Source: Flavobacteriaceae bacterium
Lineage (GTDB): Bacteria > Bacteroidota > Bacteroidia > Flavobacteriales > Flavobacteriaceae
DNA length: 64,000 nt
Direction: 5' to 3'
Assembly: GCA_021647985.1 (NCBI GenBank)
Contig: JAKITQ010000003.1
Span: 1 to 64,000 of the forward strand
Under the pieces are notes generated by a model, which made no database searches, was not told the origin of the DNA, and saw only the letters and a list, made by a program, of their open reading frames with translations. The translations under genes and the position numbers were made by a program. Shown one piece after another: positions 12,285 through 25,707 of this stretch (its first letter is position 1; each line of letters starts with the position of its first letter).

Positions 12285-12351
12285 CGATTTTTTAAAATAA
12301 TGACTCCTATTATTTTTTTCAATCAATAATTAGACTAATTTCGCTTCAGAA

Positions 12352-12541
12352 TTTGGTCACGTAATTGACGTGATAAATAAAAGGGAATCTCGTGTACTTT
12401 AAGGTACATAATCGAGAGCTGTCTCCGCAACTGTAAGCTAAGTTATGCTAGTCATAATGCTTGTTGTTAATCTTTAAGTCACTTTTTGCTAGAGCAAATG
12501 GGAAGACAAACAACAAGACGCAAGCCAGGAAACCTGCCAAG
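12352..12541 (+). ncRNA. Cobalamin riboswitch
   Basis: All hallmark blocks are present in order: GGGAATC at about 12383, the conserved core GCTGTCTCCGCAACTGTAAG at 12418-12437, AGTCACT at 12477-12483, TGGGAAG at 12499-12505, and the B12 box AGCCAGGAAACCTGCCA at 12523-12539. UUGGU near 12353 can pair with GCCAA at the 3' end to close P1, and CACGT-aattg-ACGTG at 12358-12372 forms a side hairpin. It ends 45 bp before the BtuB-like gene and no U-run terminator follows, so control of translation initiation is likely. It should reduce BtuB/BtuG synthesis when B12 is abundant. Confidence 0.97.
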
Positions 12542-12585
12542 TTAAATATTATAATCAAAGTTTTCGGAAGAAAAACGATGGTATT

Positions 12586-14406
12586 ATGGCTAAAAAACTT
12601 ACACTTATTTTATTGTTGGTATCTGCGATTTCTTTTTCGCAAAAAGATAGTATCAATCCTTTGGAAGAAATTGTCTTAAAGGGTAGTTTTTCACCAATTT
12701 TAAATTCTGGCTATACGGTAGAAGTAATATCGGATAGTATTTTAAAAAGTAATAACCAAAGCCTAGGAAATTTATTGCAAGAGCATGCCAATTTATATTT
12801 TAAACAAAATGGTAACGGCATGGTATCATCTATTGCCTTACGTGGAACGAATGCATCTCAAACTGGTGTTTATTGGAATGGTATAGCTATTAATTCTTCA
12901 TTAAATGGTCAGACAGATTTTAATACATTAACAGCCAATAGTTTTGATGAGGTTGAAATTAGAAAAGGTGGTGCAAGTGTATTACTAGGGAGTGGGGCTG
13001 TTGGTGGTGCCATTAATTTAAGAGATAAAGTTATTTTTCGTGACAAAAAAGAAGCGAATTTACAATTAGGTTTAGGGTCTTATCAAAGTTATAGCTCACA
13101 ATTGTATGGATTAATTAGTAATGATAATATTTTTATTAAACTTGGTTTAGGCGGAGCGACATCTGAAAATGATTACCCTTATTTGAACAATTCTTTGAGC
13201 AATAAAAATGGTCAGTTTAAAAATTATAATATAAATGGTGTTTTTGCTTATAAATTCAATGATAAGAATACATTGACCTATTATAATTCTTTTATTGACA
13301 ATGACAGGAATACATCTAGAACCATTACTTCAGCAAGCAATGCGAAACTCTTAAATTTCAATTCTCGTAATTTGTTAGACTGGAAATATTTGGCAAATAG
13401 ATTTTCTTCTTCTTTAAAGTTAGCTTATTTAACTGAAGAATTTACCTATTTTTTTGATAAAGATGAAAGTAAATTTTCTGATGGGAAAAGTTTTAATTTA
13501 ATTTCAAAATATGACTTCACATATTATTTAAACAAAACTATTTTAATTAATGCCGGATTGGAATTTAAAAAAGAGCAGGGTAGTGGAACCAGTATTCCCG
13601 AACATGAGCAGAACACTTTTAACACGTATCTGTTATTCCACCACCAACCTTTTACAAAATGGAATTATAATTTAAGCATCCGAAAAGCAAATTCTTCAGT
13701 TTTTGAGATACCGTTTATTTATGCCATAGATTTAAAATACGATATTAATACACAATTGATTTTAAAATCGGCATTTTCAACAAATTATAGAACACCAACA
13801 TTTAATGATTTGTATTGGGAACCAGGAGGGAATCCAGAATTGAAATCTGAAGAAAGTAAATCAGCAGAAATAGGTTTGGTATACAACCCTAGTTTTTTAA
13901 AATTTCAAATTACGTCCTATTATATAAATAGTAAAAATTTAATCCAATGGAAACCTGTTAATGGTACTTTTTGGCAACCACAAAACATACAAAATGTAAA
14001 TAATTATGGTTTAGAGTTTTTGCTTACAGCAGAAAAGAAATTAGATAAGCATAAGATAAAATTAAAAATACAATATGATTATACATTTTCAGAAGATGCA
14101 TCGATAAGTAAACAGCTTATATATGTTCCTTTTCATAAGGCAAATAGCATATTGAGCTATGTTTATGGTAAATGGAATTTTAATTATTATTTACAGTATA
14201 CCGGCAAAGTATTCACTACTACAAGTAATACCGAATCGTTAAATGCCTATAGCCTTTCAAATTTAGATTTGAACAGAAGTTTTTTTAAAAATAAAATGCA
14301 ATTGGCATTTAGAATAAACAATTTGTTTGATAAGAATTATCAATCCGTTGCATATCGGCCTATGCCAAACAGAAATTACACACTTAATATCAATTTAAAA
14401 ATTTAA
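12586..14406 (+). CDS. btuB: BtuB-like TonB-dependent vitamin B12 receptor
   Basis: 606 aa with a signal peptide (cleavage after SFSQ near residue 19). A TonB-box-like EEIVLKG follows at residues 27-33, then a plug domain (SIALRGTNASQTGVYWNGI; VEIRKGGASVLLGSGAVGGAINL) and an outer-membrane beta-barrel that ends in an aromatic-rich strand (NYTLNINLKI). The length is close to that of E. coli BtuB. There is no N-terminal carboxypeptidase-like extension, unlike SusC-type receptors. The cobalamin riboswitch directly upstream identifies the ligand. The BtuG-like lipoprotein gene follows after 7 bp. Confidence 0.93.
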   Translation: MAKKLTLILLLVSAISFSQKDSINPLEEIVLKGSFSPILNSGYTVEVISDSILKSNNQSLGNLLQEHANLYFKQNGNGMVSSIALRGTNASQTGVYWNGIAINSSLNGQTDFNTLTANSFDEVEIRKGGASVLLGSGAVGGAINLRDKVIFRDKKEANLQLGLGSYQSYSSQLYGLISNDNIFIKLGLGGATSENDYPYLNNSLSNKNGQFKNYNINGVFAYKFNDKNTLTYYNSFIDNDRNTSRTITSASNAKLLNFNSRNLLDWKYLANRFSSSLKLAYLTEEFTYFFDKDESKFSDGKSFNLISKYDFTYYLNKTILINAGLEFKKEQGSGTSIPEHEQNTFNTYLLFHHQPFTKWNYNLSIRKANSSVFEIPFIYAIDLKYDINTQLILKSAFSTNYRTPTFNDLYWEPGGNPELKSEESKSAEIGLVYNPSFLKFQITSYYINSKNLIQWKPVNGTFWQPQNIQNVNNYGLEFLLTAEKKLDKHKIKLKIQYDYTFSEDASISKQLIYVPFHKANSILSYVYGKWNFNYYLQYTGKVFTTTSNTESLNAYSLSNLDLNRSFFKNKMQLAFRINNLFDKNYQSVAYRPMPNRNYTLNINLKI

Positions 14407-15512: not shown

Positions 15513-15575
15513 ATGAAACGAGCATCTAAAATTTTGATACCCAAGAAAATGATTATTAGCGAACAGCATGTGACC
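15513..15575 (+). promoter_or_regulatory. Leader element, copy A (shared with 25185-25249)
   Basis: Begins ATGAAACGAGCAT and ends CAGCATGTGACC, both shared with copy B. In between, TTGATA (15534-15539) and TATTAG (15554-15559) can pair around a 14-nt loop. In copy B the arms are different but still pair, and the loop has the same length. The element ends 25 bases before the start codon of the outer-membrane protein gene at 15601. It is probably a structured 5' leader. It contains a 24-codon frame (15513-15587) that is not preserved in copy B. Confidence 0.55.
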
Positions 15576-15600
15576 AATAAAAAATAATAAATATAAACAC

Positions 15601-16032
15601 ATGAAAAAGTTACTTTTTATATTAATATTATGTCCTTTTTTTAATTTTTTGATAGCCCAAGAAATTGGTATTCGACTGGGTGAAATGGCAGGTAATAATG
15701 TTGCTATAGATGCTGTATACCCTTTAAAAGAAGGAAGAATACATGGTAATATTATTTTTGGTAATGGTGTTGGTATTGACGTGATTTATGATTTTATTTA
15801 TAAACCAATTCAAGGTTTACCTAACTTTCATTATTATTTAGGTATCGGTATCACAACACTATTTAAAAGTGATTATGAGTTGGGTGCTGCCACCGAAGTT
15901 GGAATTGCTTACCAGTTTACAGGGTCACCATTAACTTTAAGCTTAGATTATAGACCTTCTATTATTGTTTTAGAATCAACTATTTTTCATTGGAATGGAT
16001 TTGGTTTGAATTTTAGATATGTGTTAAATTGA
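15601..16032 (+). CDS. Small predicted outer-membrane beta-barrel protein, unknown function
   Basis: 143 aa with a signal peptide (cleavage after LIAQ, about residue 20). The mature part alternates hydrophobic and polar residues with many Gly and aromatic residues (GNIIFGNGVGIDVIYDFIY, FHYYLGIGITTLF, FGLNFRYVLN) and ends in an aromatic strand, as outer-membrane barrels do. At this size it could make an eight-stranded barrel. I do not recognise the family. It is preceded by leader element copy A and lies 131 bp behind the BtuG-like gene, so a link to B12 is possible but not shown. Confidence 0.65.
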   Translation: MKKLLFILILCPFFNFLIAQEIGIRLGEMAGNNVAIDAVYPLKEGRIHGNIIFGNGVGIDVIYDFIYKPIQGLPNFHYYLGIGITTLFKSDYELGAATEVGIAYQFTGSPLTLSLDYRPSIIVLESTIFHWNGFGLNFRYVLN

Positions 16033-25184: not shown

Positions 25185-25249
25185 ATGAAACGAGCATGTT
25201 AAAAAGCTTATCACTAAAGGAAATGATTGATAACGAGCAGCATGTGACC
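25185..25249 (+). promoter_or_regulatory. Leader element, copy B (shared with 15513-15575)
   Basis: It starts ATGAAACGAGCATGT and ends CGAGCAGCATGTGACC. TTATCA (25208-25213) and TGATAA (25228-25233) pair around a 14-nt loop ending AAATGAT, as in copy A. Two of the six base pairs differ from copy A by compensating changes. GCATG near the 5' end can pair with CATGT near the 3' end. The frame opened by its ATG stops after five codons. It ends 26 bases before the start codon of the metal-related lipoprotein gene. Confidence 0.55.
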
Positions 25250-25275
25250 GTTAAAAAACAATAAATAATAAACAT

Positions 25276-25707
25276 ATGAAATCAAAAATCTCATTTTTAG
25301 GAATCGCTATTTTAATACTTATAATTAGTGTAAGTTGTAATAGTCAGAGCAATAGTAATGATAATAATCAAATTGCAGAAAAAGAAAGTATCGTTAAAGA
25401 ATCATCTAATACAATAGTTTCAGCACCGGATAAAGATGCTAAACTTAAATCTAGTTATGTTTGCTATGTAAATAATAGCTATTTCGGAAAAGAACAAATT
25501 CCTGTTGAAGTAGATGGTAAAACTTATTATGGTTGTTGTGAAGGATGTGTAGATAAACTACATAATATCAGAGAATTTCGTTATGCTACAGATCCATTAT
25601 CAGGTGTTGAAGTAGATAAGGCAAAAGCTTATATTGTCTTAAAACCGGATGGTAATGGTGAAGTTTTATACTTTGAAAATAAAGACAATTATCTAAAATT
25701 TATTTAA
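25276..25707 (+). CDS. Lipoprotein with YHS/TRASH-like metal-binding motif
   Basis: 143 aa with a lipoprotein signal (ISVSC, Cys21). A low-complexity Asn/Ser/Lys linker (22-55) leads to the motif VCYVNNSYFGKEQIPVEV followed by GKTYYGCCEGCVDKL, a Cys...CCxxC arrangement resembling TRASH/YHS metal-binding folds, and then a second conserved half (SGVEVDKAKAYIVL). A heavy metal such as copper is the likely ligand. It is preceded by leader copy B and a nested hairpin, and followed by a terminator shared with secA. I infer a metal role together with the HYC_CC_PP gene upstream. Confidence 0.7.
   Translation: MKSKISFLGIAILILIISVSCNSQSNSNDNNQIAEKESIVKESSNTIVSAPDKDAKLKSSYVCYVNNSYFGKEQIPVEVDGKTYYGCCEGCVDKLHNIREFRYATDPLSGVEVDKAKAYIVLKPDGNGEVLYFENKDNYLKFI

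Follow-up and report, generated by a model that had tools for sequence, protein, structure and literature searches.

Two Copies of a Repeat in the Window

The 64-kb stretch of DNA analyzed here (the window) holds two copies of a short repeat, placed by a sequence-only model at 15513-15606 (copy A) and 25185-25281 (copy B), both on the forward strand. Copy A, with both flanking ATGAAA hexamers counted (left, 15513-15518; right, 15601-15606), matches model positions 1-96 with 79.3 bits (E 7e-22); its inserted unit is either 15519-15606 or 15513-15600, two options that are indistinguishable. A short reading frame on the forward strand (15513-15587; putative product MKRASKILIPKKMIISEQHVTNKK) begins at the left ATG and stops 13 nt 5' of the ATG of the gene behind the copy, which encodes a 143-aa protein with a signal-peptide-like start and no Pfam match (15601-16032, forward strand).

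Copy B, counted in the same way (left ATGAAA, 25185-25190; right, 25276-25281), matches model positions 1-96 with 77.7 bits (E 2e-21). Two short frames on the forward strand would be read here: the first (25185-25202; MKRAC and a stop) overlaps at its end an ATG at 25196, which opens the second (25196-25264; putative product MLKSLSLKEMIDNEQHVTVKKQ), and this stops 11 nt 5' of the gene ATG. The gene itself (25276-25707, forward strand) encodes a 143-aa lipoprotein-like protein whose resemblance to the TRASH and YHS metal-binding domains is weak and sub-threshold. No relative of it is present in 21 other genomes of the genus, so no empty site can be read there. Elsewhere in the window, a cobalamin riboswitch (Rfam RF00174, 80 bits) lies at 12337-12555 on the forward strand, ahead of a 606-aa open reading frame (ORF; 12586-14406).

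The sequence-only reading of this DNA had singled out the stretch 25185-25249, which falls within copy B, and had described it and a second stretch as leader elements with common ends. These ends are indeed shared, ATGAAACGAGCAT on the left (15513-15525 and 25185-25197) and CAGCATGTGACC on the right (15564-15575 and 25238-25249), all on the forward strand, and the gaps from the element ends so defined to the ATG are, as was said, 25 nt (ATG 15601) and 26 nt (ATG 25276). The unit does not end at CAGCATGTGACC, as was supposed; conservation continues through an A-rich stretch to ACAC-ATGAAA. A metal-responsive leader had also been considered, and across the copies there is no link to metal-related genes. 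With up to two mismatches the left motif occurs eight times in the window (1.7 expected), and the right motif three times (1.1 expected; 10 of 100 shuffles as high), which alone is not above chance; genome-wide, with at most one mismatch, the right motif gives 20 matches and the reversed pattern 0.

Extent and Ends of the Element

The full unit extends from ATGAAACGAGCAT to ...ACACATGAAA, the terminal ATGAAA being the first two codons of the downstream gene. It measures about 85-92 bp (~90 bp), and more where other repeats have landed inside it. Right ends in this genome are of two kinds, ACC.TTAAAAAACAATAAATATAAACACATGAAA (type 1) and TCACCTATAAAAATTAAAATTTAGACACATGAAA (type 2), and two nucleotide blocks, ATGAAACGAGCAT and GCGAACAGCATGTG, are almost invariant, third codon positions included. 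Comparison of the left end ATGAAACGAG with the reversed right end TTTCATGTGT gave no match that would indicate terminal inverted repeats, and no inverted repeat joining the two ends was listed for copy A or B. ATGAAA flanks the insertion on both sides and is single in empty sites; one of the two may be the element's own. Copies ahead of genes with another second codon still carry the left ATGAAA.

Some copies of the element (L003, L009, L010, L014, L015, L128, and others) have themselves been entered by other short palindromic repeats, such as CCTGCCTGCGGCAGGCAGG and AGCCTGCACTCAACTTGATTGGGTGA. A longer repeat of at least 100 bases lies inside copies near contig ends, as if it had broken the assembly there (L128, G000:C16:1-205; L133, G000:C8:1-183).

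Copy Number and Distribution

The model was built from 28 copies, all picked to end in ATGAAA, and so favors such copies. In the organism's own genome, a 3.0-Mb draft of 80 contigs that is 87% complete, it finds 63 matches at E<=0.001 and 69 at E<=0.1. The sequence-only reading had named an intragenomic repeat among its alternatives, and this proves correct. For a plain repeat it had named random positions and orientations; the many further copies are there, but they stand in sense orientation at gene start codons, which had not been foreseen.

Within the genus, 11 of 22 genomes have matches, this one included. Across the family, matches at E<=1e-6 occur in 95 of 397 genomes and in 71 of 237 genera; ten candidates were scored per genome, the E-values are rough, and lone weak matches may be due to chance. 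A stricter pattern is present in 7 of 149 genomes. Carriers among the matches listed include Winogradskyella, Lutibacter, Lacinutrix, Gelidibacter, Psychroserpens, Bizionia, Kordia, and Arcticiflavibacter, and a scan of named carriers yielded at least 111 stretches. Viral contigs (searched with one exact pattern) and plasmids and phages (one consensus query each) gave no match.

All 43 exact left ends in the genome fall within model matches, and by eye 42 of them are accompanied by the right end; the remaining one leads into a nested repeat close to the end of a contig. With every exact left end thus accounted for, no longer element with the same ends, as an autonomous parent would be, is seen in the 87% complete draft.

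Position at Gene Starts

Directly behind 42 of the 63 copies in this genome lies an ORF of at least 50 aa, and behind 12 a further (tandem) copy; nine have neither behind them, and these count against the interpretation that we prefer below. The right end was not used to find the exact genome matches of CAGCATGTGACC, and all 11 of these continue to an ATG. In a wider set of 250 distinct copies, drawn from 314 sequences, 239 have the terminal ATG and 11 lack it. Behind these 239 lie 191 ORFs of at least 50 aa, 19 further copies, and 23 short ORFs (some of which reflect errors in calling the end); six extend past the edge of the retrieved sequence. In 222 of the 239 copies AAA is the second codon, compared with 16 of 59 genes in the window as called by a simple script. 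Genes behind copies include some that, from the starts of their proteins, we take to be cmk, coaD, pheT, rpmC, rdgB, dapB, thrC, and lpdA.

One alternative is a plain repeat resembling miniature elements of the MITE kind, which would enter any ATGAAA, survive at start codons by rebuilding the start, and have its open frame by inheritance from a few sources, with no relay of ribosomes. It requires only a target site and the loss by selection of insertions that do harm, and most of the 139 ATGAAA hexamers in the window lie within genes (105; a further 16 are gene starts and 18 are otherwise intergenic). Yet gene starts are in excess even when only non-coding ATGAAA sites are considered: 42 of 51 non-tandem copies in this genome stand at gene starts, against 16 of 34 such sites in the one window that serves as yardstick (p 2e-7). 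That the repeat is targeted to start codons stands firmly.

Empty Sites in Relatives and Tandem Copies

Three loci were compared with relatives. At cmk, the genome reads ...GGATTTTAA-ATGAAA-element-ATGAAA-AAAACC, and its closest relative (G166) reads ...ATTTTAA-ATGAAA-ATC, without the element, which is absent in all 13 relatives read (of 16 with a match). At trpG it is G166 that carries the element (trpE-TAA-GCC-ATGAAA-element-ATGAAA-AAAGTA); 18 other genomes read, our own included, lack it (of 20 other orthologue matches), and ten of the 18 have an identical 3-nt gap behind the trpE stop. At rpmC the element is present in our genome and absent in all 11 relatives read (of 12 matches). Here G166 and three others have a short, element-free spacer and the seven others a longer, different one, so that the site is clean against only four relatives, which counts against the preferred interpretation. 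In seven relatives (L147-L153) the rplP-rpmC interval holds a common, different stretch of 50-75 nt, in some cases with ATGAAA or ATGATG near its start.

At cmk and trpG, then, ~90 bp have been inserted cleanly and exactly at the ATGAAA of a gene, and rpmC agrees in the closest relative. These comparisons identify the left ATGAAA as the original start codon and its counterpart on the right as the new one. With many copies at nonhomologous places, and the same places empty in relatives, the element behaves as a mobile interspersed repeat.

Where two copies are adjacent in this genome, the copy tested is nearer in sequence to a copy elsewhere than to its neighbor in eight of nine cases, which fits new copies inserting at the ATGAAA of existing ones. 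Neighbors are nevertheless slightly more similar on average (identity 0.898) than random pairs (0.863), and this counts against the same interpretation.

A Short Frame Leading up to the Start Codon

The short frame, read in register with AGC-GAA-CAG-CAT-GTG, could be followed in 203 copies; 14 further copies have no recognizable anchor. In 98 of the 203 it is open from the second ATG (position 12, overlapping the 3' end of MKRAC*), and in 45 from the native ATG. Another 34 have an inner ATG only and 26 no ATG in frame, and these too count against the preferred interpretation. As in translationally coupled leader ORFs, the open frame ends at the next start codon: its end lies -8 to +25 nt from the gene ATG in 180 of the 203 copies, with peaks at +10 (69 copies), -4 (31), and +4 (30). 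In 18 copies the short frame continues in frame into the gene, and five behave otherwise.

Stop codons are avoided in the frame. They occur in the variable stretch of 14 of 116 copies, where about 34 would be expected (33.6-34.5), and in 3 of 44 copies of a second set (14.2-14.7 expected); none of 600 simulations was as low, in a procedure that takes related copies as independent. Among 22 copies with inserted repeats, seven have spacings that fit neither frame, and the 15 that keep it are no better than chance, which counts against the preferred interpretation. The sequence-only reading had held that the peptides are not conserved. The frame is common to copies A and B through EQHVT, when B is read from its second ATG, a point which this view misses. 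Since stops are avoided and the peptide is hardly constrained, it is the frame that is kept open rather than the peptide that is conserved.

We consider it likely that the repeat is mobile but non-autonomous, inserts at start codons, and is rendered harmless by a relay of ribosomes. The element would enter in sense orientation at an ATGAAA start codon and, with its own right end ...ACACATGAAA, would leave the native ATGAAA on the left and supply, on the right, a rebuilt ATGAAA with a fresh A-rich start region; because that end carries ATGAAA, insertion rebuilds the gene start and leaves the protein unchanged. Copies sit between closely spaced genes (rplP-rpmC, trpE-trpG, and the gene before cmk), and for this reason the element is presumably part of the mRNA. 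Ribosomes would start at the native ATG and read the element's short frame, either directly or by way of MKRAC* and the overlapping second ATG; termination would fall at the rebuilt ATG or just ahead of it, with re-initiation there, and in some copies translation would continue in frame into the gene. Judged from the sequences, such a relay is the most likely way in which the element is tolerated, and translation of the frame, coupled to that of the gene, would explain how insertions in housekeeping genes are borne. In the consensus right end, position -6 is A and position -3 is C; Flavobacterium johnsoniae works without Shine-Dalgarno sequences and favors A at -3 and -6 (PMC6847099).

The lack of conservation in the peptide would also suit the plain repeat described above, in which no relay takes place. 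That stops are avoided despite the wide divergence of copies argues against inheritance of an open frame from a few sources, and together with the excess at gene starts it makes the plain repeat an unlikely account.

Regulatory Leaders, Leader Peptides, and RNA Structure

A second alternative to the start-codon element with its relay is a common regulatory leader, in which a trans-acting RNA or a protein that binds the conserved CGA(AC)GCATG blocks would control many genes. The near invariance of ATGAAACGAGCAT and GCGAACAGCATGTG, silent positions included, is what such a leader would show. The genes downstream speak against it: they have no common theme and mostly differ between species, with only 38 of 191 downstream proteins falling into clusters (16, all small) and most being unrelated. 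The element is, moreover, missing at cmk and rpmC in the closest relatives, and we regard a regulon of this kind as improbable.

The frame might instead encode a leader peptide whose amino-acid sequence matters, as in an attenuator or a signaling peptide. Many copies have the frame ...KGMINSEQHVT... in common, and type 1a copies show a slight excess of synonymous changes (229, compared with 190-202 in simulations, at most 2 of 600 of which were as high). No such excess is found in types 1b/2 (55 compared with 58-62), and the codons of SEQHV do not vary even at their third positions, which places the constraint there on nucleotides. A functional peptide is highly improbable.

The sequence-only reading itself had favored a selected RNA hairpin with compensating changes. 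The stems it named, TTGATA/TATTAG in copy A and TTATCA/TGATAA in copy B (25208-25233, forward strand), are legible at those places with their 14-nt loops, but they are not a conserved structure. Across 28 copies, one of the six pairs is broken in 20, and changes on both sides of a pair number 3, compared with 2.7 in shuffles (291 of 500 as high), so the covarying hairpin was rejected. Pairing as such is above most shuffles: 75.0% of cells pair in the 28 copies (6 of 500 shuffles as high), and 81.4% in a variant stem scored on 90 copies (1 of 500), a subset of 178 non-redundant full-length copies that consists almost entirely of type 1, the more frequent type, and under-represents type 2. The variant stem has no excess of double changes on these 90 copies (135 of 500 shuffles as high), and RNAalifold returned no such hairpin on the 28 or on the 90. 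Of eight copies folded singly, one folds much better than its shuffles (z -3.10) and five have z above -1. A different stem, CATGTG..CACATG, would hide the start codon; it is almost invariant in the 28 copies and therefore uninformative on covariation, and RNAalifold did not return it on the 90. No Rfam family reaches threshold at the element. There may be a weak stem at the place first proposed; with double changes within shuffles, a pair broken in most copies, and most single folds unremarkable, almost no credence can be given to a selected hairpin or an unnamed riboswitch, the above-shuffle pairing and the one strong fold notwithstanding.

Mobilization and Relation to Known Elements

A transposase or other mobilizing enzyme for the element was not found. 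It is possible, and we put it forward tentatively, that the element is a start-codon transposon in a stricter sense, whose machinery would recognize sites of translation start, ATGAAA in sense, with mRNA or single-stranded DNA as its possible substrate, and whose built-in relay permits harmless entry into essential genes. A single-strand (HUH) mechanism is conceivable, and only as an idea, in that each of the two conserved blocks contains a GCAT, which might base-pair with the ATG on either side of the element. Genes for Y1 transposases are present in 53 of 95 carrier genomes and in 104 of 302 non-carriers (odds ratio 2.4, p 0.0003, uncorrected for relatedness) and are absent in 42 carriers, as they are in 10 of 23 hand-picked copy-rich genomes. 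The two Y1 transposase genes of the genome itself have different flanks, without the ends of the element. A RAYT-like Y1 transposase gene (L143, G000:C1:9734-10072, reverse strand) is flanked by palindromes of its own, CCTTGTAGGT and CCTACAAGGT, that form a separate repeat family.

MITEs and the short interspersed repeats of bacteria include RUP, BOX, and Correia elements. The present element resembles these in its size of ~90 bp, its many copies without a transposase gene, an apparent direct repeat of the target on both sides, and its tandem and nested copies; it differs in having no terminal inverted repeats, in lying in sense at start codons, in an end that rebuilds the start codon, and in its open relay frame. 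RUP and BOX are also named in PMC3049150. The element is a short mobile repeat, but with no terminal inverted repeats seen it falls short of a MITE.

Repeats derived from the IS200/IS605 family, and REP sequences, share with it the lack of terminal inverted repeats and a short, fixed target. HEARO elements, of the IS200/IS605 world, target ATGA. Unlike these repeats, the element has no conserved hairpins (none of the subterminal kind was seen inside its left half), 42 of the 95 carriers have no Y1 transposase, and the genome's own Y1 genes are flanked otherwise. Rickettsia palindromic elements are short repeats as well, and genes tolerate them since the reading frame stays open; these elements add residues inside proteins, whereas the element sits before the protein, which is unchanged in most copies. 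Translationally coupled leader ORFs and attenuators likewise have a short frame with a stop that lies just ahead of the following start or overlaps it. Those are gene-specific, whereas here one repeat serves unrelated genes and its peptide is hardly constrained. Among papers with open-licence full text, none was found that by its title or the opening of its abstract describes the element.

Implications for Marine Flavobacteriaceae

If the interpretation is right, the element illustrates how housekeeping operons can take up mobile DNA unharmed. Start regions would have been rewritten, and an unannotated short frame placed, before dozens of genes per genome, which matters for the annotation of start sites and for studies of expression. 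The host group rarely uses Shine-Dalgarno sequences (PMC6847099), and the many natural copies, together with the unoccupied sites seen in relatives, allow a direct test of translational coupling that does not depend on Shine-Dalgarno pairing. The element would also point to an unknown mobilizing activity in marine Flavobacteriaceae.
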